From Candidatus Zipacnadia bacterium (GTDB taxonomy: Bacteria; Armatimonadota; Zipacnadia; Zipacnadales; UBA5352): a stretch of 38,432 nucleotides of DNA. Made by a program: the position numbers and the translations under genes. Location: the NCBI GenBank assembly GCA_029821265.1, contig JALGTR010000006.1, positions 1 to 38,432 of the forward strand, written 5' to 3'. Below, piece by piece: positions 3,920 through 38,432 of the stretch (its first letter is position 1; each line of letters opens with the position of its first letter). The notes beneath the pieces are model-generated. The model saw only the letters and a program-made list of their open reading frames with translations, did not search any database and was not told the origin of the DNA.

Positions 3920-4035
3920 GCGCTCCCGAATGATCCTGACCAGCGAACCGTGCTCCGTCTATCGCCTCCCGATCGCAACGCGCGGGGGCGCCGCGTCATC
4001 CTGTCGGCTCAAGCCTCCAGACGCGCCGGCCTCCA

Positions 4036-12357: not shown

Positions 12358-13386
12358 ATGGCTGTTCGACTGGGATTCGTCGGGACCGGCGGGATCGCTA
12401 ACCGCCACCTGAGCTGCGCGCAGAGACACGATGATATGGAGATCGTCGCCACCTGCGACGTCGTCCTCGAGCGTGCGCAGGAAGCCGCGGACAAATACGG
12501 CGGCGAGGCATTCGAGGATTTCGAGAAGATGTATGACGATGTCGAACCGGACGCGATCGTCATCTGCACGCCGCCATTCGCGCACGGGGACATCGAAGAG
12601 GAGGCCGCCAGGCGCGGCATCCATTTCTTCGTGGAGAAGCCGGTCGCGATCAGTATGGAGATGGCCGGCCGCGTCCTTGACGCGGTCCGCGAGCATGATG
12701 TCATCACGCAGGTCGGCTATATGTTCAGGCTTTCGCCTCCGATCGTGAAGGCGCAGAAGATGCTCTCCGACCGCGCGATCGCGATGGTCCAGGCGCACTA
12801 CTACATGCCCGGGCTGCCCAACAAGAGCTGGTGGACGAAGATGGACATGGGCGGCGGGCAGCTCGTCGAGCAGGCCACGCACATGCTCGATCTCGGCCGC
12901 TTCCTCGCGGGCGACGTCAAGAGCGTCATCGGCAAGACCTCCCGAGTCCGCGACTGGGAGCCGCCGGCGGGCTACGAGCCCGGCCCGGGCCTGGTGGAGT
13001 ATGCCGAGGGCTTCGAGATCCCCGACACCACCGCGCTGATCCTGGAGTACGAGAGCGGCTCGATGGGCACGCTCTCCTGCTCGCTGGTTCCGCAGGTTGC
13101 GTGGGACAACGGCTTCAAGGTCGTGGCCGATGGCGCACTGCTGACCATAGACGGCCCGAACGCCAGCTGGAAAACTGACGACGGTGACGTCGAGGAGGCC
13201 GCGCCCGACAACTGGGCCGACCTCGTGCTCGTGGAGTTCGTCAATGCGGTGATGGGCGAGGGTGAGGCGAGTATTCCCTACGAGGAGGGCGTCAAGTCCC
13301 TGGCGATCTCACTTGCAGGCTACGAATCGGTCGATCGCGGGTGCGAGCCTGTGGAGATCGCGGAGATACTGCCGGAGGGGATCTGA
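12358..13386 (+). CDS. Gfo/Idh/MocA-family NAD(P)-dependent oxidoreductase
   Basis: A 342-aa cytoplasmic dehydrogenase. The N-terminal Rossmann fold shows GFVGTGGIANRH, with the NAD(P)-binding glycines, and CTPPFAH. The family's EKP motif is present (FVEKPVAI), contributing the conserved Lys. The C-terminal domain contains GGGQLVEQATHMLDL, which supplies the catalytic-region His and Asp. The family oxidises or reduces sugars and inositols; the substrate cannot be assigned. ATG at 12358 is preferred because AGAGGGAG lies 9 bases upstream. ATG at 12349 would sit directly on that sequence. The gene ends 38 bp before a strong hairpin and converges with the lipoprotein gene. Confidence 0.9.
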   Translation: MAVRLGFVGTGGIANRHLSCAQRHDDMEIVATCDVVLERAQEAADKYGGEAFEDFEKMYDDVEPDAIVICTPPFAHGDIEEEAARRGIHFFVEKPVAISMEMAGRVLDAVREHDVITQVGYMFRLSPPIVKAQKMLSDRAIAMVQAHYYMPGLPNKSWWTKMDMGGGQLVEQATHMLDLGRFLAGDVKSVIGKTSRVRDWEPPAGYEPGPGLVEYAEGFEIPDTTALILEYESGSMGTLSCSLVPQVAWDNGFKVVADGALLTIDGPNASWKTDDGDVEEAAPDNWADLVLVEFVNAVMGEGEASIPYEEGVKSLAISLAGYESVDRGCEPVEIAEILPEGI

Positions 13387-17285: not shown

Positions 17286-18386
17286 CTACTCCGCGTATGA
17301 GACCGCGACCTCGGCGAGCCACATCAGGTTCTGGCGTTCGGCCTGCCCGCCCATCGGCGGCTGGAGGATTTGGATGGCGCTCGTCCTCACCGGCTCGAAA
17401 CGGTGCTCGGAATGCTGCTTCTCCTCCTGGTCGCTGACGGTCAGTTGCGTCACCCACTCGCCATCCACCAGCGCCTGGATCTCGTAATGGCGCGAGGTGC
17501 GCCAGGTCTCGTAGTAGGGCCACCACAGATCCACTCCGTTGACCACACGCGGTTCCGGGAAGCGCATCCGCAGCCAGTGCTCGCCATCGCTCTCGGCCGA
17601 CAGCCAGGTCTTCCCGGCCGTCGTCGTATCGCTCTCGGTCATCGGCTCGCCGTCGAAGATGACGCTCCAGTCCTCCCATCGCGGGGAGTCGGTGATGCTG
17701 TCGACCGTCACGATGGTCCCGTCATCAAGCTCGAGCGACGGAGCGAGCGACCAGGTGAGCGTGCGGCGCAGCACATCCTCGTCGATCGCGTAGTCGTCAA
17801 CCACGATCTCGAGCGTTCCGGAGGTCATCTCGTCCAGCCCTTCGATCATCCACGGGAAGACCTTGACCGTGCCCCGGCGCTCATCGCGCATGGTGAGCGT
17901 GACGGCGGGGTGGTCGAGGTCGAGGTGTCGTCCCGCGACGACCACCGAAGTGGCGGAGGGGTCGATCGGGTTTTGATCGTCGGCCACCGCGAGGAGGATA
18001 CGTCGCGGCACCCGCTCGATCCAGCCCAGGTCCACGCTCTCCTCATCGACGTAGCTGTGGCCGTTCACCGTGAAGCGGACGACGCGCGGCGGGGTGTCAT
18101 CATCCATCGCCAGCCACTCAGGCGGGTCGATGACCACGAGAGCCGAACCGCCGGCAATCGCCTCCGGCCCGAGCGTTATCGTGGCGCGACCATCGATCAC
18201 GCGCGGCTCAAGCTGGTGCCACTCACCCTCGGCGTTGCGGGCCCAGACGGTGCCGACCTGGCCCCGGGCGTCGAGGGCGATCGTCACCGGTCCGGTCGAG
18301 CGTACATGCCAGCGCTCCGGAGCGTCCTGCGCAAATGCTCCGGCAAGTGTGAGGAATGCTATCACTGCGACGGACAGGGAGCGCAT
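17286..18386 (-). CDS. Secreted protein with C-terminal F5/8-type-C (discoidin-like) domain
   Basis: A 366-aa exported protein. The signal peptide covers residues 1-19 (hydrophobic core, ending GAFAQ), and GGAGG sits 7 bases before the ATG at 18386. Residues ~20-215 are beta-rich, with no family I can name. Residues ~215-366 look like a discoidin/F5/8 type C carbohydrate-binding domain: ITDSPRWEDW, AGKTWLSA, a hydrophobic LRMRFPEPRVVNGVDLWW strand pair, YEIQALVDGEW, and ending IQILQPPMGG then LAEVAVSY. Such domains bind glycans or cell surfaces. No catalytic motif is visible. It is transcribed alone from the divergent region that also drives the barrel operon. Confidence 0.78.
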   Translation of the reverse strand: MRSLSVAVIAFLTLAGAFAQDAPERWHVRSTGPVTIALDARGQVGTVWARNAEGEWHQLEPRVIDGRATITLGPEAIAGGSALVVIDPPEWLAMDDDTPPRVVRFTVNGHSYVDEESVDLGWIERVPRRILLAVADDQNPIDPSATSVVVAGRHLDLDHPAVTLTMRDERRGTVKVFPWMIEGLDEMTSGTLEIVVDDYAIDEDVLRRTLTWSLAPSLELDDGTIVTVDSITDSPRWEDWSVIFDGEPMTESDTTTAGKTWLSAESDGEHWLRMRFPEPRVVNGVDLWWPYYETWRTSRHYEIQALVDGEWVTQLTVSDQEEKQHSEHRFEPVRTSAIQILQPPMGGQAERQNLMWLAEVAVSYAE

Positions 18387-18742
18387 GACGCCACCTCCTC
18401 GCGGCTGTGAGTTGCTGTTGCCCTGTTCGCCCCCTCAGGGCGCAGGTCCTCTCTCACGGCACAGGTTTCCGCGAGGGGTTGACGACTGTGAGCGGTATCT
18501 GATGCCCGCGTTCGGCTCGGCCACGATGGCGTCAGAGGGGTGACGAGGAGATATTTTGGTTGCATTAGAATCGCCACATGGTGTAGAATTCCCGTGCGAC
18601 AGGGAGACCTGTGACGCCATGACAATAATCCGGGTCGTATCGCTTCAGGCGCTTCAGCGGGGAAGGGCCTGGTCGGCGGGACGTACGGGGCCACCGAAGC
18701 GTATCGCCGCCGCACTATTCGCAGATCTCGGAGGCAGCAGCT
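18387..18742 (+). other. Divergent intergenic region and long leader (356 bp)
   Basis: The region separates the minus-strand discoidin-like gene from the plus-strand barrel gene. It contains one AT-rich island around 18550-18590 holding a promoter-like pair. If that promoter is used, the barrel mRNA has a leader of about 145 nt. I recognise no riboswitch or RNA gene in the leader. Open frames here look non-coding. Confidence 0.6.
18560..18589 (+). promoter_or_regulatory. Sigma-70-type promoter for barrel/ketosynthase/kinase operon
   Basis: TTGCAT (18560-18565), an 18-bp spacer, and TAGAAT (18584-18589) fit a housekeeping promoter and lie in an AT-rich patch of otherwise GC-rich DNA. Transcription would start near 18596 and read into the gene at 18743. 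This is a pattern match only. Confidence 0.5.
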
Positions 18743-19825
18743 ATGGTTCCCAAGCGGACGGCCGGGCTATTACGTCTCGACTCAACGCGACACTGTCGCC
18801 ACGTCGGACGACCCCGTACGAGGACTTCTTCGCGCCATCTGATGCTTTCTGTCGTTTCGCTATGGCTCATTTGGGCCCTTCCCGTCGCAGCCCAGGGGCC
18901 CGGCGTGGAATCGTACGGCGTCCCTCATCTCTTCTCGCTCCCGACTGCGACGACCGCCCGCCAGTTTGGCATGGGCGGCGTATCCACCTGCGTCCGGGAT
19001 GTCGGCTTCCCCAACCCCGCCTTCGCCGGTGATCTCGACGGCCAGCAGGGCGGACTCCGCGGATGGCGTACGGACTTCGACGGCGACGGGATGCAGCTCA
19101 CCGCCTGGCAGGCCTGGTATGCCACACCGATCGGCGAAGGCGAGGGCATCCAGGTGCTCGGCGTCGAGCTGGATTCAGATCGTGGCGCGGTGGCGGTCGG
19201 TCCCGGGCAGGCGCTGCCGGGCGCGATCTCCGAGACCGACGCCGCGGTCCACTACGGACGGCGTCTCTCAGACCGCTGGCTGGTCGGCGGCGGCGTGGCG
19301 CCGGTGCTGCACAGCAGCTTCAACCTCTTCACCCCCGATGGGATCGTCGCGGCCCACGCCGATAGCACCGCGACCTTCGGCTTCAGGCTCGGGGCGCTCT
19401 ACCAGTGGGCGCCGGAGGGCTACGCGGGCTTCGTCTTCGACCGCTACAACGAGGACGTCTCGTTCCGGGCGGGCGCCGCCCCGCCGATGGACTTTGACTT
19501 CACCTCCACCGAATGGGCGCTTGGCATCTCAGGGCGCGTCAGTGAGCGAGTCTTCGCCGCCGCCGAGTGGATGGCGCTTGAGAGCGAGGACGGGGATGTT
19601 CGCAGCAAGACCGACGGGCTGCACTTCGGTGTTGAAGTCACCGCGACGGACGCGCTGGACCTCCGTGCGGGACTGAACGACGGTTCTCTGTCCCTTGGAG
19701 CCGGGTATGCGATCGACGGCTGGGTCGTCAATTACGCGTGGATCGACGACTGGAATGACGACGCGGTCGGCGCGGCATTGGGCGGCTCCGACACCCATCA
19801 GCTTGAGATCGGGCGATACTGGTAG
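18743..19825 (+). CDS. Outer-membrane beta-barrel-like protein
   Basis: A 360-aa predicted exported protein. ATG at 18743 has GGAGG 8 bases upstream. It gives a long Arg-rich n-region (~33 residues) before the hydrophobic core LSVVSLWLIWALPVAAQG. A shorter start at 18842 would give a conventional signal peptide but has no Shine-Dalgarno. The mature protein consists of repeated amphipathic strands with alternating hydrophobic residues, Gly and aromatics, and ends IGRYW. A terminal aromatic residue is the usual outer-membrane barrel signal. Segments such as TARQFGMGGVSTC near the N-terminus recall PorV/PorQ-type barrels. A ketosynthase-like gene follows after 22 bp, indicating an operon. Confidence 0.72.
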   Translation: MVPKRTAGLLRLDSTRHCRHVGRPRTRTSSRHLMLSVVSLWLIWALPVAAQGPGVESYGVPHLFSLPTATTARQFGMGGVSTCVRDVGFPNPAFAGDLDGQQGGLRGWRTDFDGDGMQLTAWQAWYATPIGEGEGIQVLGVELDSDRGAVAVGPGQALPGAISETDAAVHYGRRLSDRWLVGGGVAPVLHSSFNLFTPDGIVAAHADSTATFGFRLGALYQWAPEGYAGFVFDRYNEDVSFRAGAAPPMDFDFTSTEWALGISGRVSERVFAAAEWMALESEDGDVRSKTDGLHFGVEVTATDALDLRAGLNDGSLSLGAGYAIDGWVVNYAWIDDWNDDAVGAALGGSDTHQLEIGRYW

Positions 19826-19847
19826 GGAAGGGTCAAGCGGTTCAGCA

Positions 19848-21125
19848 ATGAGGCCTTCACTGACAGATATACGCAATCGTGTGGTCATCACCGGTCTGGG
19901 CGTCGTATCCTCGACGGGGATAGGCCGTGAGAGCTTCTGGGAGGCCGTCCGCGACGGCCGCTCGGGCATATCACACGTCGAGGGCTTCGACGTCTCGAAC
20001 CTGTACTGCCGGATCGCCGGTCAGATCAAAGACTTCGATCCCACGCAGTACATGGATCGATCCGAGGCGCGACGGTGTGGCCGCTTCGTGCACTTCTCGG
20101 TGGCGGCGGCCGAACACGCCGTCGAGGATGCCGGGATCGACCTCAGCCGGGTCGATCCATTCCGTAAGGGCGCGATCTTCGGCACCTCCGTGGCCGGCAG
20201 CGGCAACATTACCGATGAGATCTACCGAAAGTACTACGACCGCGGACCGCGAGCCTGCGGCGTCCTCGATCACCTCGAGATGGCGCCACACGCAGCTACG
20301 GCCCGGGTGATGATCCGCTGGGGGATGAAGGGCCCGAGCGGTTCCGTCGCGAGCGGCTGCTGTTCGGGCCTGGAGGCGATTGCATCGGGGGCCAACCTGC
20401 TCCGCGAGCGTGAGGCGGACGTCATGGTCGTCGGCGCGTCTGAGGCTGTGGTGAGCGAGTTCGGGCTCTCGTTGCTGGCGCTCACTGACATCATGACACA
20501 CCGAAACGAGGAGCCTGAGACCGCCTGCCGGCCGTTTGACGCGACCCGAGACGGGATCGTCGTGAGCGAGGGTGCCGGGGCGGTCGTCCTTGAGCGGGCG
20601 ACGTACGCGATGGAGCGCGGCGCCCCGATCTTCGCCGAGGTTCTCGGCTACGGCACGGCCACCGAGGGACAGCACCTCGCGAAGGCGGACCCCAGTGGCG
20701 AGGAGCTTGCCAACGCATTCAGGCAGGCACTGCGAGAATCGAGGCTCAGTCCGGTCGATGTGGACTACGTGTGCGCCCACGGCATCGGCAATCGGGAGTA
20801 TGACGCCGCCGACATGCGGGCCATCAAGCTCGTGCTCGGCGAACGCGCGTACAACATTCCCGTGAGTTCGATCAAGGGAACGACCGGCCAGCCGTTTGCC
20901 GCCGGCGGCACGTGGCAGACGACTGCGGCATGCATGACCCTCCAAACGGACACCATCGCGCCGACAATCAACTACCGGGTGCCTGACCCTGAGTGTGACC
21001 TCGACTGCGTCCCGAACGTTGCGCGGCCTGCCCGGGTCGATACGCTCATGGTCAACTCGCACAGCTTCGGGGGCACGCATTCGGCGTTGATTCTCAGGCG
21101 CTTTGATCCCGCAGCCGCGGCATAG
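19848..21125 (+). CDS. Beta-ketoacyl synthase (FabF-like) with altered active site
   Basis: A 425-aa thiolase-fold ketosynthase. It starts with VVITGLGVVSS. The nucleophile region is VASGCCSGLEAI, with C171 aligning to the catalytic Cys. The first catalytic His is in AHGIGNRE (H311), where HGTGT is usual. The conserved Lys is K343. The second catalytic His, normally in a TGH motif, is Gln here (KGTTGQPF, Q348), and NSHSFGGTHS replaces NSFGFGG. So condensation may be altered or lost while acyl transfer to Cys remains possible. ATG at 19848 is used; its Shine-Dalgarno is weak. The gene lies 22 bp after the barrel gene and 39 bp before a histidine kinase. No acyl carrier protein is adjacent. Confidence 0.85.
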   Translation: MRPSLTDIRNRVVITGLGVVSSTGIGRESFWEAVRDGRSGISHVEGFDVSNLYCRIAGQIKDFDPTQYMDRSEARRCGRFVHFSVAAAEHAVEDAGIDLSRVDPFRKGAIFGTSVAGSGNITDEIYRKYYDRGPRACGVLDHLEMAPHAATARVMIRWGMKGPSGSVASGCCSGLEAIASGANLLREREADVMVVGASEAVVSEFGLSLLALTDIMTHRNEEPETACRPFDATRDGIVVSEGAGAVVLERATYAMERGAPIFAEVLGYGTATEGQHLAKADPSGEELANAFRQALRESRLSPVDVDYVCAHGIGNREYDAADMRAIKLVLGERAYNIPVSSIKGTTGQPFAAGGTWQTTAACMTLQTDTIAPTINYRVPDPECDLDCVPNVARPARVDTLMVNSHSFGGTHSALILRRFDPAAAA

Positions 21126-21164
21126 CGTTTCTCGACAGCAGCAGCCCTTAGGAGACGCATCTGG

Positions 21165-23645
21165 TTGATTAAGGAGACGGCGCTTGCAGTCACGGCGACG
21201 GCGGCCGTCGCGCTGGGGATCGCGGTCTACCAGCGCAACCCCGACCGTGTGTGGAACCGCCTGTTCGCGGTTCATGCGGCGGGCGGCGGTGTCTGGGCGT
21301 TCCTGAACTACATGATCGAGACCGCCGAGACGCCCACTGAGCTCGGGCTCTGGCTGCGTCTTACGCACCCCGTCGTCGCCATGGTCATCTGCACCGTCGT
21401 TGACTTCGCCTGGACGTTCCCCGAACGCATCGACTACGTGGACACCCATCGGCGCATGCTTCTGTACGGCATCGGCCTCTTCTTCGGAATGTCGGGAGCG
21501 GCCCCGAACCTGTACCACTCAATCTCGATCACCCCCCATGCCGTTGCCGTCGACTATGGCTGGCCGTTCGTCGCCTTCGGGATATTCACGGTCGTCGCAC
21601 TCGGATACGCTGATGTCGTGCTGCTGCGCAAGGCCATTCGGCTCGAGGGCGTGCAGCGTGTGCAGGTGGTGTGGGTGCTCATTGGCCTGGCGGGCAGCCA
21701 CCTGATCGCCAGCCTCGTGATCATCATCATCCCGCTGGTCTGGGGCACCACGGCCTACAGCGGCTGGGGCGCGGCCGGGTATATCGTGACGCTGCTCGGG
21801 ATGGGATATGCCATCGCGAAGCATCGCCTGATGCGACCGGATATGGCGCTGAGACGCCTCGCCGGCGCCATGGCCTCGGCCAGTATTGTGCTTTCGGTGG
21901 GCATTGGGCTGCTACAGACTCTGGAACCGCTGCTGGTCGCGCAGGGCGTCCCGATGCCGCTGGCCTACATCGTCGTGGGGCTGCTGATGGGGATGCTCAT
22001 CCTCATCGCCCACGAGCAGGTCTCCGAGTGGATGCGCCGGATGCTCACCTCAGGCAACGACCCGGCCGTCGTCCAGGCCGAGGCGCAGTCGAACATCCTT
22101 CGCACCCTCGACGCGGATCAGCTTGGCCACAGCCTCGCTCAGGCGATCCACGACGCGCTTGAGCCGTCTCGCGTCGTGGTTTACACGAGATCAGACGACA
22201 GCAACTGGCTGCAGCCGCGTGCTTTCATCGCGGCTCGCGACGATGATACACGTGCGAGCCCGCCGGCACTGCCGCTCGACCACGAGCTGGTGCGCCTCGT
22301 GGCGGACGAGGCTGGCCTCATCACGCGAGACCAGGTCTTCCGTTTCCAGTCGCTCGACGAGGCGCGCAGGCTCTCAGCGGAGATGTCGGAGCTTGACGCG
22401 CAGACCCTGGCGCCGATGATGTGGGAGGACGAGCTGATCGGGCTGGTCCTCGTCGGCCCGAAGCTCTCGGGTGACATGTACACTGACGAGCACCTGCGGT
22501 TTGTCGCCGATATGGCGCTGCAGGCCTCGCTCGCGCTGCGCAATGCCGAGCTCTACGCGCAGACCGCCGCCCTGAAGGAGTTCAACGAGCGGATCCTGCG
22601 GGAGATGGACAACGCGGTGGTGGTCACGAACCCGTCCGGTCGCATCGTGGTCTGCAACCGCGCCGCCGAACGGGTGTTGGGCATCGATGCACGCCAGGCG
22701 CGTGGGGCGCGCATCGAGGTCCTCCCGCAGGGCATCGCGAACTGCATCCGCGCGAGTCTGGGCAGCGGCCGGATCCTCTCCAGCCAGCAGTTCCGGATCG
22801 AGCGCGACGGAACGACGGTTCCGGTCGCCTGCAGCACCTCACCGCTCGCCGGTGACGGCGACGCGTCACAGGGCGCCGTGGCTGTTATCAGCGATCTCAC
22901 GTTGATCGAGCAGCTCGACAAGGAACGCCAGGAGGCCGAACGCCTCTCGCTGATCCGCCTTATCTCGGCGGGCATGGCGCACGAGATCCGTAACCCGCTC
23001 GTGGCCATCCGCACATTCGCGGAGCTGGCGCCGAAGAGGCTGGACGATCCCGAGTTCCGCTCGAATTTCCTGACCGTCGCCCAGCAGGAGATCAAGCGGA
23101 TCGACAAGCTCGTGGGCGATCTACTGACGCTTTCGAAGCCGGCGGACGTCGTGGTAGAGGCGATTCCGATCGCCGACATCTGCCGCCAGGTGGTCCGCTC
23201 GCTGTCGGGCGTGGCAGAGGCCAAGAACGTGACGATTAACCTGCATACCAGCTCCCTTTCCGGCCACGCCGAGGGAGATCCGTCGCGTCTGCATCAGGCG
23301 ATCATGAACGTCGTCAGCAACGCCATCGAGGCCGAGCCGCCACGCGGCCGTGTGGAGGTCACGGCTACCGAGGCGCACACGCGGGACGGCGATGTCGTGC
23401 GTATCCGGGTGCACAACAGCGGCAGCTACATCCCGGAGGAGCATATCGAGGAGATCTTCCGGCCCTTTGTCAGCCGCAAGCCTGAGGGGACGGGCCTCGG
23501 GCTCGCGATCTGCCAGACGATCATCGAGGAGCATCAGGGCCAGATCAGCGTGCATTCTACGCCCGAGGACGGAACCGAGTTTGTGATCGAACTGCCGTAC
23601 GAATCTGCAAGAACGCCAACCATGCCGGCTGGTGAACGTCGATGA
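21165..23645 (+). CDS. Membrane histidine kinase: 7TM-type sensor, GAF, PAS, HisKA, HATPase
   Basis: An 826-aa sensor kinase starting at TTG 21165, with AGGAGA 9 bases upstream. Residues ~1-290 hold about eight hydrophobic helices resembling the N-terminal 7TM histidine-kinase region. Next come a GAF-like domain (~310-465) and a PAS domain (~475-580, starting ILREMDNAVVVTNPSG). The HisKA box is GMAHEIRNPL with phospho-acceptor H606. The ATPase domain is complete enough to be active: N-box NVVSNAIEAE, a G1-like HNSGSYI, FRPFVSRK and GTGLGLAI. It has no receiver, so phosphate probably passes to partners. The next gene overlaps its stop by 4 bp (ATGA), which indicates translational coupling. Confidence 0.92.
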   Translation: MIKETALAVTATAAVALGIAVYQRNPDRVWNRLFAVHAAGGGVWAFLNYMIETAETPTELGLWLRLTHPVVAMVICTVVDFAWTFPERIDYVDTHRRMLLYGIGLFFGMSGAAPNLYHSISITPHAVAVDYGWPFVAFGIFTVVALGYADVVLLRKAIRLEGVQRVQVVWVLIGLAGSHLIASLVIIIIPLVWGTTAYSGWGAAGYIVTLLGMGYAIAKHRLMRPDMALRRLAGAMASASIVLSVGIGLLQTLEPLLVAQGVPMPLAYIVVGLLMGMLILIAHEQVSEWMRRMLTSGNDPAVVQAEAQSNILRTLDADQLGHSLAQAIHDALEPSRVVVYTRSDDSNWLQPRAFIAARDDDTRASPPALPLDHELVRLVADEAGLITRDQVFRFQSLDEARRLSAEMSELDAQTLAPMMWEDELIGLVLVGPKLSGDMYTDEHLRFVADMALQASLALRNAELYAQTAALKEFNERILREMDNAVVVTNPSGRIVVCNRAAERVLGIDARQARGARIEVLPQGIANCIRASLGSGRILSSQQFRIERDGTTVPVACSTSPLAGDGDASQGAVAVISDLTLIEQLDKERQEAERLSLIRLISAGMAHEIRNPLVAIRTFAELAPKRLDDPEFRSNFLTVAQQEIKRIDKLVGDLLTLSKPADVVVEAIPIADICRQVVRSLSGVAEAKNVTINLHTSSLSGHAEGDPSRLHQAIMNVVSNAIEAEPPRGRVEVTATEAHTRDGDVVRIRVHNSGSYIPEEHIEEIFRPFVSRKPEGTGLGLAICQTIIEEHQGQISVHSTPEDGTEFVIELPYESARTPTMPAGERR

Positions 23646-25642
23646 CGATTACGGTGTTATCCAATGTCAGCGCGGATTGTGCACAGGCCGTGCGCGATGC
23701 CGTGGCGGATCGCGCCATCGTGCTGCATCCGGGCGGGATCGAAGCGACTGTTGAACTCCTCCAGTCGATACGAGCAGATCTGGTTGTGATGGAGGTTCAG
23801 CAGTTCACGCAGACCGCCGTGCGCTCCGTCGCGAATCTCCGCGAGCACGCCCCCGACGCGGTGCTGCTGTGCATCGCCCCCGACGAGGTCATTGAAGACT
23901 TCCGCTACGAGCAGGTAACCGGCCCCGACCGCTGGGTGCGTCTCAGCGCGCCGGCCCACGAACGCGATGAGATCGTCGATGCGGCGCTCGAGACCGCTGA
24001 GATGCGCGCGGAGATGGCCGCCATCGAGCGCGATACCACCGAGCCGCCGATCATCGAGGAGGGCCAGAGCCGCGGGGCGAGCGACATCGACGCATTCCGG
24101 CGCCTGATGGGCGGGGTGGCGGGCCGGTTCGACCTCGACCGCCTTCTCGAAGCCTACGTCGATGCGGTCAGCCACTTCGTCAAGTGCGCCAGCTACTGCC
24201 TGCTGTGGGAGGACGGAGAGAGGCATCTGACCGTCCGTGAGCAGCGTGGTCTACGGTCGGAGATTGCCCGCGATGCCCGGCTCTCTCGTGCCGACGCGCT
24301 CCCCAGCTGGTACCGCCGCAACCGACGGGTCGTCACCTCCGCCGAGCTGGCCTCGTGGCAGGATCGACAGCTCGCGGGGCGCATCAGGCGAGAGATGGAG
24401 CTTTTCGGCGCCCAGCTCGCAGTCCCATTGATGGTGCGCGGACGCCTCGCTGGAATCCTGATGCTCGGCGAGAAGGTGCTCGGCGAATGCTACCTCAGCC
24501 AGGAGATCGAGGTGCTCTTCACGGTCTCGAGCCACGTCTCGCTCGCCGCCGAAGGCATCGAGCTGCATCAGGAACTGGGTCGCGCGAAGGTCTACGCCGA
24601 CTGCATCGTTGAGAGCATGGCCGGGGGACTGATCACCCTCGGGCCTGACGGGCGCATTCAGGTCTGCAATCCGCGGGCGACACAGGTTCTGGGACTCGAT
24701 CGCAGCGCGGTGGAGGGATCCGACCTGCGGGCGCTTCCGTCGCCACTTGGCGACATGCTCTACGCCGCCCTTGCCGATCCGGCAGGCGGCGGCACGCGTG
24801 AGGAGGTCGCCATCCGGGGCGGCGAGACAATGCTGCGCGTGAGTACCTCCGCCCTCGTCGACGAGGACGGCGAGGTCATGGGAAGCGTCCTGATGCTCTC
24901 TGACATCACCGCCGAGAAGGAGCTTGACGCCGAGCGCGGCAGACGTGAGAGGCTGGAGGTGCTCCGCAAGATCGTGGGCCGGATAGCTCACGAGGTGAAG
25001 AACCCGCTTACCGCTGTGAAGACCTACGCCGAGCTGATCAGCGGCCGTCCAAGCGAGGATGACCGGCTCGCGAAGTTCTGGTCCGAGACGGTCCTGCCGG
25101 AGATCGATCATCTCGATGACATGCTCAGAAACCTGCTGCGCATGGTCGAGCAGCCCGAGCCCCACGTGGAGTCGGCGAGTCTGGAGGACCTGATCAAGCA
25201 GGCGGTTGAGGCGGTCCCGCTGGCGCCGGAGATCAGGCAACAGGCGTTCAATGTGGAGATCGACCGCAACCTGCCGTGGGTGATGGTCGATCCGCAGCCA
25301 ACTCGTGATGCGCTCGCGCACCTGCTGCGCTACCTCGCGGGCAGCAAGCCGTATATCGTGCACGTTGAGGCGCATCTGGAGCGCGATGAGGATCCAGGCC
25401 AGATCGTGGTCAATATGAAGCGTCATCATCGGACCAACGGGCAGTTCGACCCCCAGAGGATATTCGATCCGCTACACGTGCTGCAGGATCCCGAAGCCGA
25501 TCTTGGTCCGGTCATAAGCCAAAGGATCATCTCCAATCAGCGCGGCGATGTGAGCGCAGCCCTGGAGGACGGGCTAATGACGATGAGAATCACACTTCCG
25601 CGATCCACCTTCTCAGGCGAACCCGACCGGGGGGTGAGCTGA
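23642..25642 (+). CDS. Histidine kinase-like protein with pseudo-receiver and degenerate ATPase domain
   Basis: A 666-aa soluble signalling protein. Residues ~1-125 look like a receiver fold, but the phospho-Asp position reads ADLVVMEV, with Glu51 in place of Asp. GAF (~150-310) and PAS (~320-430) domains follow. The HisKA box GRIAHEVKNPL is intact, with H450. The C-terminal ATPase region has lost its signatures. The N-box place reads HLLRYLAGSKPY, no DxG motif is present (NMKRHHRTNG there), and GTGLGL is replaced by ADLGPVIS. It can probably be phosphorylated or dimerise but not bind ATP normally. ATG at 23642 overlaps the upstream kinase stop, and the hybrid kinase starts 1 bp after its end. 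Confidence 0.85.
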   Translation: MTITVLSNVSADCAQAVRDAVADRAIVLHPGGIEATVELLQSIRADLVVMEVQQFTQTAVRSVANLREHAPDAVLLCIAPDEVIEDFRYEQVTGPDRWVRLSAPAHERDEIVDAALETAEMRAEMAAIERDTTEPPIIEEGQSRGASDIDAFRRLMGGVAGRFDLDRLLEAYVDAVSHFVKCASYCLLWEDGERHLTVREQRGLRSEIARDARLSRADALPSWYRRNRRVVTSAELASWQDRQLAGRIRREMELFGAQLAVPLMVRGRLAGILMLGEKVLGECYLSQEIEVLFTVSSHVSLAAEGIELHQELGRAKVYADCIVESMAGGLITLGPDGRIQVCNPRATQVLGLDRSAVEGSDLRALPSPLGDMLYAALADPAGGGTREEVAIRGGETMLRVSTSALVDEDGEVMGSVLMLSDITAEKELDAERGRRERLEVLRKIVGRIAHEVKNPLTAVKTYAELISGRPSEDDRLAKFWSETVLPEIDHLDDMLRNLLRMVEQPEPHVESASLEDLIKQAVEAVPLAPEIRQQAFNVEIDRNLPWVMVDPQPTRDALAHLLRYLAGSKPYIVHVEAHLERDEDPGQIVVNMKRHHRTNGQFDPQRIFDPLHVLQDPEADLGPVISQRIISNQRGDVSAALEDGLMTMRITLPRSTFSGEPDRGVS

Positions 25643-25643
25643 C

Positions 25644-27272
25644 GTGGGTGCCAGAATACTTGTCGTCGATGACGAGGCCGGGCCGCGCGAATCGCTGCGG
25701 ATGATCCTGAACCTCGAGCATGACGTGCGCATGGCCTCCAGCGGCCGCGAAGCGCTGGAGATGATTCAGGACGAGCGGCCGGACCTCGTGTTCCTCGACA
25801 TCCGGATGCCCGGCATGGACGGCACCGAGGTGCTGCGGCGGATCAAGGAGATCGCGCCGGAGGTCGAGGTGGCAATGATCACCGCATACGCCGCCGTGCA
25901 GAGCGCTCAGCGCGCTATGCGCCTCGGGGCCCTCGACTACATCACGAAGCCGTTCGGCGTCTCGGAGGTCGAGGCCGTGGTCGAGCGGGCGCTCGCCCGT
26001 CGTCGTGAGGAGCGCGAGGGCCGACTACTGCTCGAGCAGCTCAGCGCCACGATCTCGCAGCTCTCGGAGGAGCTGTCGGGCGATCGCGACGGTGGGGATA
26101 ATTCGCTGGCGCGCGAACTCGCGTCCGCGCACAGCCACATCGAAGGGCAACTAAGCGAGGTTCTGAGGCTCAGCTCCATCGGCGAGGTCGCCGCAGAGGT
26201 GGCGCATGACCTCAACAACTTCCTGTCAACGATTCTCTTCCGCATCGAGATCATGATGCTCGACCTCGACCAGACCCAGCAGCTTGACCCGCAGTCGCTC
26301 GCGGACGGTCTACAGCAGATCGCGCTGGCCGCTCGCGACGGCGGCGAGGCCCTCGAGCGCATCTCGTCGCTGACCGGCAGCAACCCATACGAGCCCACCG
26401 ACCGGGTCGATCTGAACGAGGTCATGCGCTCAGCGGTGGAACTGAGCCGGGGTCGGGTCGATCACAGCGAGCGCTACCGCGTCGAGATGGATCTTGGCGA
26501 GCTTCCCCAGATCGACGGAAGCCCGCCGGGCCTGCGCACGGTCTTCACGAATCTCATCATCAATGCGTTCCACGCGCTCGAGGATGAGGAACACGGCGGG
26601 ACGGGTATCACGATCAGGACCCGTCGGGAGGGCGACCGCGTGGTCGTTGAGGTGCGTGACGACGGCGTCGGGATGTCCGAGGACGTCCTCGCTCGCCTCG
26701 CAGAGCCGTTCTTCACTACGAAGGGCGAGCGGGGCACCGGGCTGGGGCTGTCCGTCGCACACAAGGTCATCGCGCAGCACAATGGCACCATCGAGTTCGA
26801 CAGCACGCCCGGCGAGGGCACGCGCGTGCAGGTCTGCCTGCCGATCGAGCAGACCGACGCCGCTCCGCGTTCGCATGCCGGCGTCCCGACCGTCATGGTG
26901 GTCGATGATCAGGAGGGTATGCTCGTTGTGACGCGGGAGATCCTGCAGACCTACGGCTACCGCGTCGTCACCGCGTCGTCGGGCGAGGAGGCGCTACAAC
27001 TGCTCGAGCACGCGATTGACAACCCGGGCGAACCGGTTCCGGAGGTGCTGATCTCCGATTACCGCATGCCGGGGATGACGGGCACCGAGCTCGCCATTGA
27101 GGCGCGTCGGCTGAGGCCGGACATTCCGGTGATTATGCTCAGCGCGTTCCTCGAAGAGGCCGGGCCAGAGGCGCTTGAGATCGCCAACGTGGCGCTCGAG
27201 AAGCCCTTCGACCTCCACGAACTGTGCCGCATCGTCGGCGAGCAGATCGAGCAGAGACCGGTCGCGAGCTGA
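25644..27272 (+). CDS. Hybrid kinase: receiver, HisKA, HATPase, receiver
   Basis: A 542-aa soluble protein beginning at GTG 25644, one base after the previous stop, with GGGGGTGAG upstream. The first receiver (1-120) has DDE, D52 (LVFLDIRMPG) and the switch Lys in ITKPF. A HisKA-like segment with H188 (EVAHDLNNF) follows. The ATPase domain has N-box NLIINAFHA, DDGVGM and GTGLGLSV, and looks active. A second receiver (~415-540) has VDDQ, D472 (ISDYRMPG) and LEKPF. There is no DNA-binding or other output domain, so the output is either another protein or conformational. It is the last gene of the operon and probably exchanges phosphate with the two kinases upstream. Confidence 0.93.
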   Translation: MGARILVVDDEAGPRESLRMILNLEHDVRMASSGREALEMIQDERPDLVFLDIRMPGMDGTEVLRRIKEIAPEVEVAMITAYAAVQSAQRAMRLGALDYITKPFGVSEVEAVVERALARRREEREGRLLLEQLSATISQLSEELSGDRDGGDNSLARELASAHSHIEGQLSEVLRLSSIGEVAAEVAHDLNNFLSTILFRIEIMMLDLDQTQQLDPQSLADGLQQIALAARDGGEALERISSLTGSNPYEPTDRVDLNEVMRSAVELSRGRVDHSERYRVEMDLGELPQIDGSPPGLRTVFTNLIINAFHALEDEEHGGTGITIRTRREGDRVVVEVRDDGVGMSEDVLARLAEPFFTTKGERGTGLGLSVAHKVIAQHNGTIEFDSTPGEGTRVQVCLPIEQTDAAPRSHAGVPTVMVVDDQEGMLVVTREILQTYGYRVVTASSGEEALQLLEHAIDNPGEPVPEVLISDYRMPGMTGTELAIEARRLRPDIPVIMLSAFLEEAGPEALEIANVALEKPFDLHELCRIVGEQIEQRPVAS

Positions 27273-27324: not shown

Positions 27325-28965
27325 TTAGCGCCGGAGGATGTACCGGTTCGCCGAGGCCACCATCTCCCCCATCGCCTCGGCGTCACCGATCGTGCACCAC
27401 AGCCGGGAGAGGTCGCGGAACTTGCGTGCCCCCACGCCCAGGCAGTGGGCGATCAGCGCGTTGTCGTCCGGCACTGACGTGAGGATGCCGGATGCCTCGA
27501 GCTCGGCCGCGAACCACATCGTCAGCCTTGTGAACTCGGCGAAGTCCATGCCGCCGACCGTGTATGGAAGCGGCTCCCACATTGAGGGAGGAAACAAAAG
27601 CTTGATCTTGTAGTCGAGACCGACCTCGGTCAGCGCCCGGGCATCGAACTCGAAGCCGTACTGCTCCGGAGCGTTCCACCACGGAGTGCCGGGCAGCAGT
27701 CCGGGGAACTGCACCGGTACCGAGTCCGGACGAATCTCGCGCAGGAACTCGAGGCTCTCCTGCAGCGTCTCCTCTGTGTCGAATGGCAGCGGCACGATCA
27801 TGCTCGCGACCACGAAGATGCCCGCATTCTGCGCCGCCACGACCGTCTCATGCACCTGATCGAGATTGATTCCCTTCCGCACCGCCCTGTCCAGCACCGC
27901 CTGGCAGCCTGATTCGATGCCGAAGAAGATCGCGTGCAGCCCGGCGCGCGACATCTGCTCGAAGTGGTCCGACCGCGCGCTCGCGAAGTGCCCGAAACAC
28001 GTGAAGTCAACGTCCAGTCCACGCGCGATGATCTCGTCGGCGACCTCGGCCATCAATCGCCCGGGCGTCGCCGAGCCCGCGAAGCGGAATGCGTGGACGC
28101 CATGCGCCTCGATCAGCGCCTCCATCCGGTTCGCGAGTACCTCCGCGCTCGCGGTTCGCAGCCGCCGGCCGCTCTCGACCGGATGCGTGCAGAACCCACA
28201 CCCCTGCGGACAGCCCCGACTGTCATCGATCACGATGATCTTGATCTTCTCGTCGCCGGCCATCGCCGGATAGACGTCCTCGTCGTAGATCGGCTCGGGC
28301 AGGTTGTCCATCTGCACGTCGTCAGCCCGCGGGTTGTGTACCGTCGAGCCATCGCTGAGGTAGATCGCGCCCGGGATCTCGCGCAGATCGCCGCGGCCGA
28401 GAGCGAGGTCCGCCAGCATCCGAATCGCGCGCTCACCCTCGCCGTCGAGCAGGCACGTGAATGCGCTCGTGCGCTCGTAGATCGCCTCCCCCCACCACGA
28501 TGCCTGCGGGCCGCCGCCGAAGATGGGCAGATCGGGGAACTCCTCGCGCAGGCGCTCGGCGATGATCACACTGCCGGTGAATCCGTCGCCATTCCATAGC
28601 TTCAGCCCGACGAAATCAGGCCGCAGCTCGCGCACCTGCCCGGCGACCTCGTCGGCGATCTCGTGCATCTGCCTCCGCTGGTGCTCCTGAAGCGTCTCAT
28701 CGAGCTGTCGCAGCCTGCGGCGAGCGTCATCGTCGAGGGCCCCGCCCCTTCCGCCGAGAAGCGCCATGGCATGCGGCCTCAGTGCCTCGGTAAGCTCCTG
28801 AGGAAACAGCCGCCGCATCGTCGAGACCGTGCCGAAGTCAAGGATTCGCGTGCTCCACCCGGCCTCAGCGAGGGCGCCGGCGAGGTTGGCCAGGCCGTTG
28901 TCGGGCGTCAGACTGCTGGGCGTGTACGGGTAACCACCGTAACTGATAAGCAGCGCATCGGGCAT
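27325..28965 (-). CDS. Radical SAM protein with B12-binding-like N-terminal domain
   Basis: A 546-aa protein. Residues ~1-200 resemble a B12-binding Rossmann-like domain (PDFVGLKLWNG, IFGGGPQASWW), although the DxHxxG cobalamin motif is not visible. The radical SAM domain carries C252-x3-C256-x2-C259 (GCPQGCGFC), the iron-sulfur ligands, followed by the TIM-barrel segments FRFAGSATPG and IFFGIESGCQ. Such proteins catalyse methylations, ring formations or other radical steps on lipids and natural products; the substrate is unknown. ATG at 28965 has no clear Shine-Dalgarno. It converges with the hybrid kinase gene and is divergent from the secretin-N-like gene. Confidence 0.88.
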   Translation of the reverse strand: MPDALLISYGGYPYTPSSLTPDNGLANLAGALAEAGWSTRILDFGTVSTMRRLFPQELTEALRPHAMALLGGRGGALDDDARRRLRQLDETLQEHQRRQMHEIADEVAGQVRELRPDFVGLKLWNGDGFTGSVIIAERLREEFPDLPIFGGGPQASWWGEAIYERTSAFTCLLDGEGERAIRMLADLALGRGDLREIPGAIYLSDGSTVHNPRADDVQMDNLPEPIYDEDVYPAMAGDEKIKIIVIDDSRGCPQGCGFCTHPVESGRRLRTASAEVLANRMEALIEAHGVHAFRFAGSATPGRLMAEVADEIIARGLDVDFTCFGHFASARSDHFEQMSRAGLHAIFFGIESGCQAVLDRAVRKGINLDQVHETVVAAQNAGIFVVASMIVPLPFDTEETLQESLEFLREIRPDSVPVQFPGLLPGTPWWNAPEQYGFEFDARALTEVGLDYKIKLLFPPSMWEPLPYTVGGMDFAEFTRLTMWFAAELEASGILTSVPDDNALIAHCLGVGARKFRDLSRLWCTIGDAEAMGEMVASANRYILRR

Positions 28966-34395: not shown

Positions 34396-35364
34396 TCAGA
34401 TCACGTCGAAGTCGGCGAACACCCCATCTGCGACGGTCTCAGGATCCGGCTCCGGGCTCTCTGAGGCGAACTGAATCGCCTCTTCGATCTCGCGCTCGAC
34501 CTGCGCCGCCAGCCTGTCGAGCGCATCAGGCGTGCAGATGTCCCTCTCGATCAGCTTCGCCGCGGCGACAGTCAGCGGATCGCGCTGCAGCCAGCGCTGC
34601 TCCTCCTCGTCGGTCCGGTAGAGACACTCGTCGCTCTTGGAGTGGCCGCACTGGCGGTAGGTCTGTGCCTCCACCAGTGTCGGGCCACCACCCGCCCGGG
34701 CCCGCTTCGCCGCGTCACTGACCGCTGACGCGACGGCCTCGACGTCGTTGCCGTCACAGCGCACCCCCGGGATCCCCCAGGCGGAGGCCCGCTCCGCAAC
34801 ACTTGGAACGCGAAAGGCCTCCTCGACGGGCGTGCTCATGGCGTACATGTTGTTCTCACACAGGTAGACCACCGGAAGCTCCCACATGGCCCCGATGTTC
34901 ACCGCTTCGTGGAACGCCCCCTGCCCTGTCGCCCCGTCGCCGAAGAACGCCAACACAATCCGGCCGGTCTGCTGCAACTTCTGGGTCAGCGCGGCACCCG
35001 TGGCGATCGGAATCATACCCGCCGTGATGCCGTGCGAACCAAGGAAGCCGATTGAGAAGTCCGCAACGTGCTGCGAGCCGCCGCGCCCTCCCGCGTACCC
35101 CGTCGATCTGCCGAAAAGCTCGGCCATCAGGCGTCGCGGATCGGCCCCCTTCGCGAGGAAATGTCCGTGACCGCGGTGGTTGGACGTCACCATGTCGTCA
35201 GGCTGCAGCGCCGCGATCGCCCCGACCGCCGAGGCCTCCTGGCCTATGCAGAAGTGCGCCGTGCCGACGATGAGGCCCTGGGCAAAAAGCTCCTCCACGG
35301 CCTCCTCGAAGCGCCGGATCAGAAGCATCATCCGGTAGCATTCGCGAAGCTGTATCGGTGTCAT
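34396..35364 (-). CDS. TPP-dependent 2-oxoacid dehydrogenase E1-alpha subunit
   Basis: A 322-aa E1-alpha (pyruvate, acetoin or branched-chain keto acid dehydrogenase type). The TPP motif begins GDGATGQGAF at 142 and ends with NN at 171-172. SNHRGHGH at 61-68 and YRQCGHSKSD, a phosphorylation-loop-like segment, are typical. E1-alpha normally works with an E1-beta and E2/E3, none of which is in the window; downstream on this strand there is no room before the convergent gene. ATG at 35364 overlaps the upstream ketosynthase-like stop as ATGA, with GAGAGG 8 bases before it. In this operon it may supply an acyl group from a keto acid, which is inference. Confidence 0.9.
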   Translation of the reverse strand: MTPIQLRECYRMMLLIRRFEEAVEELFAQGLIVGTAHFCIGQEASAVGAIAALQPDDMVTSNHRGHGHFLAKGADPRRLMAELFGRSTGYAGGRGGSQHVADFSIGFLGSHGITAGMIPIATGAALTQKLQQTGRIVLAFFGDGATGQGAFHEAVNIGAMWELPVVYLCENNMYAMSTPVEEAFRVPSVAERASAWGIPGVRCDGNDVEAVASAVSDAAKRARAGGGPTLVEAQTYRQCGHSKSDECLYRTDEEEQRWLQRDPLTVAAAKLIERDICTPDALDRLAAQVEREIEEAIQFASESPEPDPETVADGVFADFDVI

Positions 35365-36293
35365 CCACGCCACCTCTCGAAGACGACGGCCCCCGACCCG
35401 TCGCGTGAAACGGCCGCAAGCGGCTCTTCGGCGTCGGCCGCCAGCACTGCGCAGCAGGCCGCCGACAGCGCCACTGAAGCCCCGAACGCATGCCCGCAGG
35501 CCTCAGACGCGTCGATGACCCGCGCGCAGTCCGTCCCGGCGGCGAGCAGCGCCCGCTCGCCTGCCGCGGTCGCGCACGGCGCCAGGCAGGCCGCTCCGAT
35601 CAGCTCGGCGATCGGCTTCGCGCCGCGCTCCAATGCCTGCGCGGCCGTCTCGAGCACGAGGATCGCCGAGCCCTCGCCGATCGGGCCGGGGAAGCCCGCG
35701 TCGCCCAGCGCCGCGACGACGGGTTTGCTCAGGGCCTCCGCGCCCCCTGCCAGCATCAGGTCCGCGCGACCGGTCCGAATCGCGGTCATGGCGTACTTCA
35801 ATGCCGCCGCTGAGGACGCGTCTCCCAGCGAGTGCGTCATGTTCGCCCCCTGCAGCTCGTACTCGATGGAGATCAGCGCGGCCGGGCTGTTGATGAATGA
35901 GTGCGTGAAGATCATCGGCGAGCCGAAGCGGAGGCCGCGCTGCTGAACGCGAGCGGTCATGTTGAGCATCGACTCGGTCGTCCCCCACGCGGTGCCGAGA
36001 GATGCGCCAAGGCGCTCGCTCGCAAAGCCAGGATGCCGTGCGCCCTCCCAGCCGAGGTCGGCGTCGCGGACGGCAAGGTAGCAGGCCGCCAGCGCCAGGT
36101 CGGAGCACGGGTCCATGTACGTCTTCGAGCTCTCACGGAAGTCCTCCGGATCGTAGTCCGCCGCCAGCAGGTCCTCCGCCGGCCGCTCGCCTGCCTGCAG
36201 GGCGTCGATCAACGGCTCCACCCCCGCGCCGAGGCCGTGGATCGCCCCGACACCGGTGACGACGATGCGCGCGTCGTCCGATCGGCTTTGCAT
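35361..36293 (-). CDS. Ketosynthase-like protein lacking active-site Cys (chain-length-factor-like)
   Basis: A 310-aa, shortened thiolase-fold protein. It begins with IVVTGVGAIHGLG as in FabF. At the nucleophile position, where ACASG is expected, it reads SLGDASSAA with D158, so it cannot form the acyl-Cys intermediate. The HGTGT block is missing; only the second His region survives (EACGHAFGAS, H268). This resembles the catalytically inactive KS-beta/chain-length factor that pairs with KS-alpha in type II polyketide systems, although those usually have Gln at the Cys position. ATG at 36293 is 2 bp after the stop of the complete ketosynthase, with AGGTGA 7 bases upstream. Heterodimer formation is likely but inferred. 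Confidence 0.85.
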   Translation of the reverse strand: MQSRSDDARIVVTGVGAIHGLGAGVEPLIDALQAGERPAEDLLAADYDPEDFRESSKTYMDPCSDLALAACYLAVRDADLGWEGARHPGFASERLGASLGTAWGTTESMLNMTARVQQRGLRFGSPMIFTHSFINSPAALISIEYELQGANMTHSLGDASSAAALKYAMTAIRTGRADLMLAGGAEALSKPVVAALGDAGFPGPIGEGSAILVLETAAQALERGAKPIAELIGAACLAPCATAAGERALLAAGTDCARVIDASEACGHAFGASVALSAACCAVLAADAEEPLAAVSRDGSGAVVFERWRG

Positions 36294-36295
36294 CG

Positions 36296-37501
36296 TCAGC
36301 TCACCTCTCCCAGCACCACGCAGGCGTTGTTCCCGCCGATTCCTGCCGAGATGGATATCGCCCGTCGCACCTCGACGTGGCGCGCTACGTTCGGCACATG
36401 GTCGAGGTCGCACTCGGGGTCAGGCTCGCGGTAGTTCAGGGTCGGTGGCACAACGTCTTCAGTGATCGCCAGAGCGGTCGCGATCGCCTCCGCCGCGCCG
36501 GCCGCCCCCATCATGTGCCCCACTGCGGCCTTTATCGACGATACCGGAATCTCTCGCGCCCGGCTGCCGAGCACTGCCTTGATCGCCTGCACCTCCGCGG
36601 GGTCATGCGGCTGCGTGCCGGTCCCGTGTGCGTTCACGTAATCGATGCCTGCGGGATCGACGCCGGCGTCCTCGATGGCCTCGCGCACCACGCGGGTCAT
36701 CCCCGCGCCGCCCTGGTCTGGCGCAGTAAGGTGATACGCATTGTTGTTCTCCGCCCAGCCGAGGACCTCACAGACGATCTTCGCGTCCCGCCGGCGGGCA
36801 TGTTCCAGCTCCTCAAGCACCAGCGCCGCGCCGCCCTCGCCGAAGATCGTCCCGGAGCGGTCCGCGGAGAAGGGCCGGATCATCTCGTCAGTGATCGTGC
36901 GCAGCGTGCTCAGCCCCGAGAGCGGGGTGGGCGCCAGGGCGTCGCAGCAGGCGACGAGGACTGCCCGCGCCTCGCCGAGACGGATCATGTCCAGCGCCAC
37001 GCCGAGCGCCGCCGCGCCCGACGCGCAGGCCACGGAGAGCAGCGCGCATGGCCCCCCGATGCCGAATGCGGTACAGGCGTGCTCGGCCGCAGTCACGAAC
37101 GCAAACTCCTCGAAGTCCGCCTGCCGCACCTGCCCCTCCAGCAGGCCCTCGACATACGTCTCCCAGGCGTTTGAGCCGCCGAAGTTGGTGGCGTACACGC
37201 CGCCGAAGCCCGGATCGCGCTCGGCCGACGGGACGATCGCAGCCCTGACGATCGCCTCGCGCGCGGCCACAAGCATAAACTGCGTGCCGAGGTCCGGCGC
37301 CTCCTCCAGCCCGAATGCCTCCGGCTGGAAATGGAAGTCACGCACCTGTCCTGCGCTCTCGTTACGCAGCCCCTCGGGATCGAAGCGATCGATGCGATCG
37401 ATCCCCGAGCGGCCCTCTATCAACCCCTCCCAGAATGCGTCGAGATCCCTCCCAAGGGACGACACCACGCCCATCCCGGTTATCACTGCCCGTCGGTTCA
37501 T
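36296..37501 (-). CDS. Beta-ketoacyl-ACP synthase II-like (FabF-like), catalytic
   Basis: A 401-aa ketosynthase of normal length with the full Cys-His-His set: C159 (SVACASG), H292 (NAHGTGTQ) and H329 (KAAVGHMMGAAG), plus K324. It starts MNRRAVITGMGVVSSLG and ends with ISAGIGGNNAC. ATG at 37501 is used, with GGGAG about 10 bases upstream; the longer frame has no signal. It would condense an acyl donor with malonyl-ACP. Operon position makes it the KS-alpha partner of the following Cys-less protein, with a FabG-like reductase upstream. I do not call it the housekeeping FabF because no acpP, fabD or fabH is adjacent. Confidence 0.93.
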   Translation of the reverse strand: MNRRAVITGMGVVSSLGRDLDAFWEGLIEGRSGIDRIDRFDPEGLRNESAGQVRDFHFQPEAFGLEEAPDLGTQFMLVAAREAIVRAAIVPSAERDPGFGGVYATNFGGSNAWETYVEGLLEGQVRQADFEEFAFVTAAEHACTAFGIGGPCALLSVACASGAAALGVALDMIRLGEARAVLVACCDALAPTPLSGLSTLRTITDEMIRPFSADRSGTIFGEGGAALVLEELEHARRRDAKIVCEVLGWAENNNAYHLTAPDQGGAGMTRVVREAIEDAGVDPAGIDYVNAHGTGTQPHDPAEVQAIKAVLGSRAREIPVSSIKAAVGHMMGAAGAAEAIATALAITEDVVPPTLNYREPDPECDLDHVPNVARHVEVRRAISISAGIGGNNACVVLGEVS

Positions 37502-37922
37502 GCTCACCCGGCTCCCGCCGCGCTGTCGTTCGCCCGCTCCTCGATGTGAAGAGACGCCCCGGCCCGCGGGTGTTTCCATGGGCGAGGCGTCTCAGGGTTC
37601 CTCGTGGGCGTGTCGGGCTCCTCCCGCGCCGGGGCTCCGCCCAGGCAACCTGACCGTCGAGCCACCCCAGACGACCGGCGCCCGCGTGCCGCGCAGAAGC
37701 GTGCTGCGCACGCTTCCCCAACGCCCCGCCCGTGCCGCCCCGCGCGCCCTCAAATGTGCGCGCATACAATGCCGCCCGGCTCCTGCAGGAGCCGGGCGCG
37801 GGGCGGCACGGAGGCCTGCACTGCAGGCCTCGGCTCTGCCGGCGGGGCGTCGGGGGGCCGCACTTTGTGCGGCCTGCGCGGCTCTGACCGAGGGCGGGGC
37901 GGCGAAGCGTAAAGCGACGGCC
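37502..37922 (-). other. Hairpin-rich intergenic region (421 bp)
   Basis: This long gap inside an otherwise tight minus-strand series is extremely GC-rich. Open frames cross it in several phases, but their translations are low-complexity Arg/Ala/Pro/Gly with no recognisable protein or start signal, so I call it non-coding. It contains at least four perfect inverted repeats, listed separately. Whether a promoter for the ketosynthase lies here cannot be seen. Confidence 0.6.
37696..37874. repeat. Cluster of four perfect inverted repeats
   Basis: Four hairpins within 179 bp. One is 37696-37716 (9-bp stem GAAGCGTGC, loop TGC). The second is 37774-37797, a 24-bp perfect palindrome centred on CTGCAG. 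The third is 37811-37831 (10-bp stem GAGGCCTGCA, 1-nt spacer). The fourth is 37856-37874 (8-bp stem GGCCGCAC, loop TTT). The stems differ in sequence, so it is not a simple repeat family. None is followed by a T-run on either strand. Confidence 0.75.
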
Positions 37923-38432
37923 TCACATTCGCAGTCCGCCATCGACGCTGATGGTCTGCCCTGTGACGTAGCCCGCGGCATCTGAGCAGAGCCATGCCAC
38001 GAGCGGCGCGACGTCGCTGGGTACCCCGAAGCGGCCGAGGGGGATCAGTGCAAGCATTGCCTCGGCGCGCCTGTCGTCCATCCCGGCGGTCAGGTCCGTC
38101 TCGATGATCCCGGGCGCGACCACGTTGCAGGTGATGCCCTGTCCGGCCAGCTCGCGCGCGGTGGTTTTGGTAAGGCCAAGCAGGCCAGCCTTCGCGGCGG
38201 CGTAGTGCGCACGCATCACGTCGCCCATCAGACCCGCGTCCGACGATATGTTGACGATCCGCCCCCAGCGCCTCCGCATCATCTGTCGGATGGCGGCCTT
38301 CGTGCAGTGAAACGCGCCGTCGAGGGAGACCGCGATCACCTCGCGCCAGCGCTCCGGCTTGAGCATCATCAGATAGCCGTCGTCGATGATCCCGGCGTTG
38401 TTGACGAGAATGTCCAGCCCACCGAGCTCGGC
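37923..38432 (-). CDS. SDR-family 3-oxoacyl reductase (FabG-like), N-terminus beyond the window
   Basis: This covers 169 codons of a short-chain dehydrogenase/reductase; the first ~75 residues, including the NADP-binding TGxxxGxG loop, lie past the right edge. The frame is open to base 38432 and reads LDILVNNAGI there. The catalytic Ser lies in NISSDAG, and Y-x-x-x-K is in YAAAKAGLLG. VVAPGIIETDL and the FabG-typical C-terminus TGQTISVDGGLRM are present. It reduces 3-oxoacyl-ACP (or a similar substrate) with NADPH. It is in the same orientation as the ketosynthase pair, 421 bp upstream of it, so a joint pathway is likely but the gap leaves the operon uncertain. Confidence 0.88.
   Translation of the reverse strand, partial: AELGGLDILVNNAGIIDDGYLMMLKPERWREVIAVSLDGAFHCTKAAIRQMMRRRWGRIVNISSDAGLMGDVMRAHYAAAKAGLLGLTKTTARELAGQGITCNVVAPGIIETDLTAGMDDRRAEAMLALIPLGRFGVPSDVAPLVAWLCSDAAGYVTGQTISVDGGLRM

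Follow-up and report, generated by a model that had tools for sequence, protein, structure and literature searches.

How a beta-barrel protein, a FabF-type ketosynthase and three signalling proteins come to stand in one row, and what they might do together, is the question raised by a locus of a Candidatus Zipacnadia bacterium (Armatimonadota). The window, i.e., the whole stretch of 38,432 nucleotides that was analysed, is an entire contig (C120) of a 4.24-Mb genome. An earlier note on this DNA had read the five genes as a single operon behind one promoter-like pair, encoding a membrane sensor circuit that lacks a DNA-binding output and is linked to a ketosynthase-derived lipid or metabolite at the cell envelope. 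The gene calls bear out the layout: a barrel gene (18743-19825, 360 aa), a ketosynthase (KS) gene (19848-21125), and the genes for HK1 (21165-23645, TTG start), HK2 (23642-25642) and HK3 (25644-27272, GTG start), all on the plus strand. Gaps of 22 bp, 39 bp and 1 bp separate barrel from KS, KS from HK1 and HK2 from HK3, respectively, and HK1 overlaps HK2 by 4 bp (ATGA). In an alignment of nine same-family loci, a conserved GGAGG-ATG fits the barrel start at 18743. The count of five stood, with the correction that a sixth gene belongs to the locus too, namely one for a B12-binding radical SAM protein (Pfam) at 27325-28965 on the minus strand, convergent to the operon.

The promoter-like pair was found as described, with TTGCAT at 18560-18565 and TAGAAT at 18584-18589 of the plus strand, an 18-nt spacer between them (TTGCAT-N18-TAGAAT, 18560-18589) and the barrel gene downstream. 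Its -35 element matches the consensus at only 3 of 6 positions, and a generic sigma-70 scan does not list the pair, which falls below the scan threshold. In an alignment, all nine loci of the window's own family (f1) have it (9/9), a count that is circular in that the pattern was taken from f1; the count in f4 is independent, and there the f1-derived pattern lies upstream of the barrel in 6 of 7 loci, against 0.04 expected by shuffling, which extends the conservation of the promoter to a second family. The pattern also precedes the barrel in 2 of 8 f6 loci (0.10 expected) and in 0 of 4 f2/f3 loci, and it occurs in none of 139 segments of 420 nt taken from the region between the barrel and a point shortly beyond the KS. 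Between the five genes, a generic scan revealed no promoters or terminators above expectation. Together with the conserved gene order described below, this sequence pattern supports the proposal of a single unit, and the five genes are very probably co-transcribed.

The search for the same order in related genomes, as the earlier note had suggested, recovered barrel-KS-HK1-HK2-HK3 in 19 genomes (18 relatives plus the window), all of one order of the Armatimonadota (Ca. Zipacnadia and relatives), with HK3 cut by a contig end in some of them. The full order is present in families f1, f3, f4 and f6; MAG contigs end inside many loci, and f2 and several other contigs stop earlier and agree with the order up to their ends. 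All four gene junctions recur in loci L004, L005 and L006, and the KS and kinase genes stay together in relatives. Neither of the outcomes that would have refuted the earlier note, separation of these genes in relatives or a promoter or terminator between them, was thus observed. The nearest named relatives, Candidatus Zipacnadia AB_3033_Bin_59 and Armatimonadetes UBA5352, share 73-74% identity with the window in the KS. A barrel profile search gave matches in 45 of the 291 genomes of the phylum; the KS adjoins the barrel in all 30 of the best loci from this search, a pairing that persists where barrel identity has fallen to 33%. In the order, 31 of 41 genomes encode a full-length KS of the clade described below, and the system is common there, not universal. 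As a control for synteny, 28 relative loci were compared: the KS is kept in 28/28 and the radical SAM gene in 16/28, as against 1 (13885), 1 (flavodoxin), 4 (F5/F8), 1, 1 and 2 of the 28 for other neighbours in the window.

Three genomes depart from this arrangement. In G290 no HK3 stands beside HK2; in this locus (L082, G290:C67) a different radical SAM-like protein (3579-5069) follows HK2 in the expected place of HK3, and the radical SAM gene, relocated by rearrangement, still flanks the operon. The barrel of G287 is divergent, and that of G286 is located elsewhere. As for the surroundings in the window, an F5/F8 type C domain protein is encoded divergently from the operon (17286-18386, minus strand), and likewise upstream in several same-family genomes; a tRNA-Lys(CTT) gene lies at 12861-12953 on the minus strand.

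The barrel protein combines an N-terminal extension and a signal-like segment with a C-terminal Trp, the residue in which most barrels of the alignment end. An AlphaFold (AF2) model built from four sequences predicts about 14 strands at moderate confidence (pLDDT 70.7), and the top 14 matches of a Foldseek PDB search with the barrel are TodX or FadL without exception (E 4e-10 to 5e-8, TM 0.51-0.61), which are import channels for hydrophobic substrates (PMC7728783). Outer-membrane barrels are all somewhat alike in fold, and the stronger argument is an NPA motif (codons 19013-19021), which is essential for the hatch of FadL (PMC8407342); of the 47 alignable barrel rows, 44 have it, and the two aligned f30 barrels read APT. 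The protein has no Pfam match at E 0.01, the FadL family model included, and its NCBIfam score against PorV_fam is 19.1 bits, under the cutoff of 90. An identity as PorV of type 9 secretion, suggested by this weak match and by one type 9 structure ranked 31st in the Foldseek search, was considered and dropped. Modelled fold and motif point to a FadL/TodX-like barrel, one that is not filed as a family member. This likeness gives a chemical basis to the earlier idea of a lipid at the envelope, and strengthens it; that the lipid derives from the KS is a further step that we infer, and the ligand of the kinases could be unrelated to the KS. Relatives of the barrel, mostly with NPA, also stand alone in L090-L103 and other loci, where no KS or kinases of this kind are neighbours.

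The ketosynthase matches Pfam PF00109/PF02801 and, over its full length, the FabF model TIGR03150, scoring 392.4 bits and not reaching the curated cutoff of 493.75. Its active-site residues are C171, H311, K343 and Q348 (codons starting at 20358, 20778, 20874 and 20889). Like FabF, it keeps the Cys, the first His and the Lys; unlike FabF, it carries Gln for the second catalytic His, as do 33/33 members of its clade, whereas His stands there in each of the 38 other ketosynthases of the comparison. Across this clade, which is monophyletic with a support of 0.997 (FastTree, midpoint root), the catalytic Cys and the first His are invariant, and the Lys is kept but is Arg in family f30. The assignment to the FabF family holds, with a modified active site. 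A housekeeping FabF is ruled out by the curated cutoff, by the incomplete Cys-His-His triad and by another, separate His-type ketosynthase that the genomes carry. The Gln at this position could mean that condensation is altered or lost. Searching with a short nucleotide pattern built on the Gln motif was uninformative, as every genome matched. At E <= 1e-160 no such KS was found in 82 genomes of one further phylum and 80 of another; since this threshold is strict and the search had no positive control, the zero counts do not show absence.

On the minus strand of the window, a second ketosynthase gene (36299-37579), of the His type, lies directly ahead of one for a shorter KS-like protein (35364-36413), in which the active-site stretch, GDASS, has no Cys. 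An SDR gene and an E1-type dehydrogenase stand beside the two, and judging from the sequence the whole segment (34399-38369) resembles a type II pair of KS and chain-length factor that the end of the contig truncates.

The three signalling proteins were confirmed as such, with the correction that HK2 is a predicted pseudokinase. HK1 has the architecture 7TM-GAF-PAS-HisKA-HATPase (Pfam), and its phospho-His, N, G1, F and G2 boxes are present in the window and in relatives, the G1 Asp being Asn; by its intact motifs it qualifies as a canonical membrane histidine kinase. HK2 is made up of a receiver-like N-terminal domain that lacks the phospho-Asp, GAF, PAS, a HisKA domain with H450 and an ATPase-like domain. 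A Pfam search found no HATPase_c in it, and no row of the alignment that covers the region has an N, G1 or G2 box; with the ATP-binding boxes lost, an active kinase was rejected. The phospho-His, in a HExxxP-type motif, is kept in nearly all rows and is Gln in L115. Spo0B likewise joins a phospho-His helix pair to an ATPase-like domain without nucleotide-binding motifs. The structure model of HK2 is of low overall confidence (pTM 0.34), which is why its domain-level pattern alone was used, and by this pattern and the alignment HK2 reads as a pseudokinase resembling Spo0B, from which it differs by the added receiver-like, GAF and PAS domains; its phosphotransfer is putative. In HK3, REC(D52)-DHp(H188)-HATPase-REC(D472) (Pfam, motifs), two canonical receivers flank a canonical kinase of the HDLNN type with N, G1, F and G2 boxes, which relatives share, and no output domain follows. 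The inputs of HK2 and HK3 are cytoplasmic, either GAF/PAS or receiver.

The expected lack of a DNA-binding output is true of the window's lineage, none of the five proteins having a DNA-binding domain, but it does not extend to related loci. Family f30 (G189, G190, G191), of the same phylum and outside the window's class, has the same KS clade and HK1, with a class I methyltransferase between them that is found only in this family; its barrel lacks NPA and is related weakly (37 bits or less). G189 additionally encodes HK2, a REC-HD-GYP protein and, upstream, a hybrid kinase. Its locus (L114, G189:C40, 2697-13860) reads divergent barrel, hybrid GAF-kinase-REC, KS, methyltransferase, HK1, HK2 and REC-HD-GYP, the last of which hints at a c-di-GMP output. 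Two genomes of a different group, G291 (titled Nitrospirota) and G298, have the Gln-type KS behind an NtrC regulator; one strand of L122 (G298:C72, 1829-13538) encodes NtrC, a Cys-His-Gln KS, a PF13557 barrel, two B12 radical SAM proteins, a PrsK-like 7TM-GAF kinase and REC-GAF. From f30 and the NtrC-linked loci it follows that parts of the gene set recur while the output module changes.

What the operon might do was approached through these comparisons, which make up all the evidence for a circuit. We propose, at somewhat less than even confidence, that it encodes a self-contained circuit for an acyl or other hydrophobic molecule, consisting of the KS, a FadL-type channel and a His-Asp-His-Asp phosphorelay with no DNA-binding output of its own. 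The Cys-His-Gln KS would make or modify the acyl molecule, the radical SAM protein would probably modify it further, the FadL-like channel would pass it across the outer membrane, in one direction or the other, and HK1 would sense the molecule or its effect on the membrane. Phosphate might then move from the His of HK1 to the REC1 Asp of HK3, on to the His of the Spo0B-like HK2 and finally to REC2 of HK3 or to an unlinked regulator, an order that we infer from the distribution of kinase, receiver and kinase-dead phospho-His modules among the proteins. In a more specific version, put forward only tentatively, this would be an acyl-signal system in which the KS makes a hydrophobic signal, a co-transcribed FadL-type channel takes it through the outer membrane, and the likewise co-transcribed relay of 7TM kinase, pseudokinase and REC-kinase-REC reads it, with outputs exchangeable by lineage (unlinked, REC-HD-GYP or NtrC).

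Precedents for separate steps, which are no evidence of membership, come from FadL, which takes up long-chain AHLs in rhizobia (PMC9938287), from PpyS, a ketosynthase that produces quorum signals (PMC4578411), and from phcBSRQ of Ralstonia, which combines a signal methyltransferase, a kinase, a REC-kinase and a REC (PMC8578825). Like the window operon as read here, phcBSRQ unites in one operon the enzyme of a fatty-acyl signal with a sensor kinase, a REC-kinase and a REC, and leaves out the final DNA-binding regulator (PMC8578825); the window operon differs in having a ketosynthase as the enzyme, an outer-membrane channel gene in first place and a pseudokinase as second kinase, and it lacks a PhcB homologue, a methyltransferase being found in f30 only. 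No published description of the gene combination was found in the open-access papers searched, which is weak evidence of novelty.

Two other readings remain real rivals to the proposed circuit. In the toluene system, the FadL-family channel TodX is genetically linked to the multi-kinase signalling of TodS/TodT, and the window operon shows the same kind of linkage. By analogy the channel might import a fatty acid or hydrocarbon that the kinases sense, with the KS elongating or loading the acyl chain. The nearest barrel folds, TodX and FadL, belong to channels that bring in hydrophobic substrates (PMC7728783). Nutrient import is the usual role of FadL-type channels, which counts against the proposed circuit, and the cytoplasmic inputs of HK2 and HK3 would suit such uptake. 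On the other hand, unlike the Tod genes, the operon has no catabolic genes and no DNA-binding regulator: among the window genes examined, no acyl-CoA dehydrogenase, ligase or oxygenase was recognised, and the linked extra genes are for radical SAM and, in f30, methyltransferase. Uptake and sensing of a nutrient is possible, if rather doubtful. Unlikely, in turn, is a circuit for envelope lipids, in which a special lipid, of the membrane or linked to exopolysaccharide, would be the product of KS and radical SAM, the barrel would serve the outer membrane, and the kinases would tune synthesis to the state of the envelope in the manner of PrsK-type 7TM-GAF kinases. XrtA/PEP-CTERM PrsK/PrsR resemble the loci in the 7TM-GAF-kinase architecture and in the NtrC gene of L122, whose 7TM-GAF kinase aligns with PrsK over the greater part of its length at 195 bits, short of the cutoff of 300, and the radical SAM protein has weak matches to lipid-associated families, e.g., HpnJ and rSAM_ladder_B12. 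Yet HK1 of the window matches PrsK in the kinase region only, no PEP-CTERM/exosortase gene was noticed, and other lipid-pathway genes are absent inside the operon.

It is quite improbable that the KS makes no product and acts as a non-condensing acyl-binding subunit reporting acyl-chain status to the kinases: the second His is invariably lost, but the catalytic Cys and first His are invariant and the Lys/Arg is kept, and an Asn at the equivalent position is compatible with condensation in FabH-type enzymes. Adjacency by chance, or plain local synteny with no shared function, is hardly credible. All relatives with the full order belong to one order, as it would predict; the synteny control nonetheless rejects it, in that the KS is always kept and other neighbours rarely are, and the barrel-KS pair survives deep divergence of the barrel and variants of the gene set recur in a distant family and a second lineage.

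If the proposed circuit holds, one operon would unite the synthase of a lipid-type signal with its outer-membrane channel, its sensor and its relay, in a phylum whose signalling has hardly been studied. The recognisable KS clade would show where to search for such systems elsewhere, and a pseudokinase set between two active kinases would make the role of non-catalytic kinases in phosphorelays directly testable.
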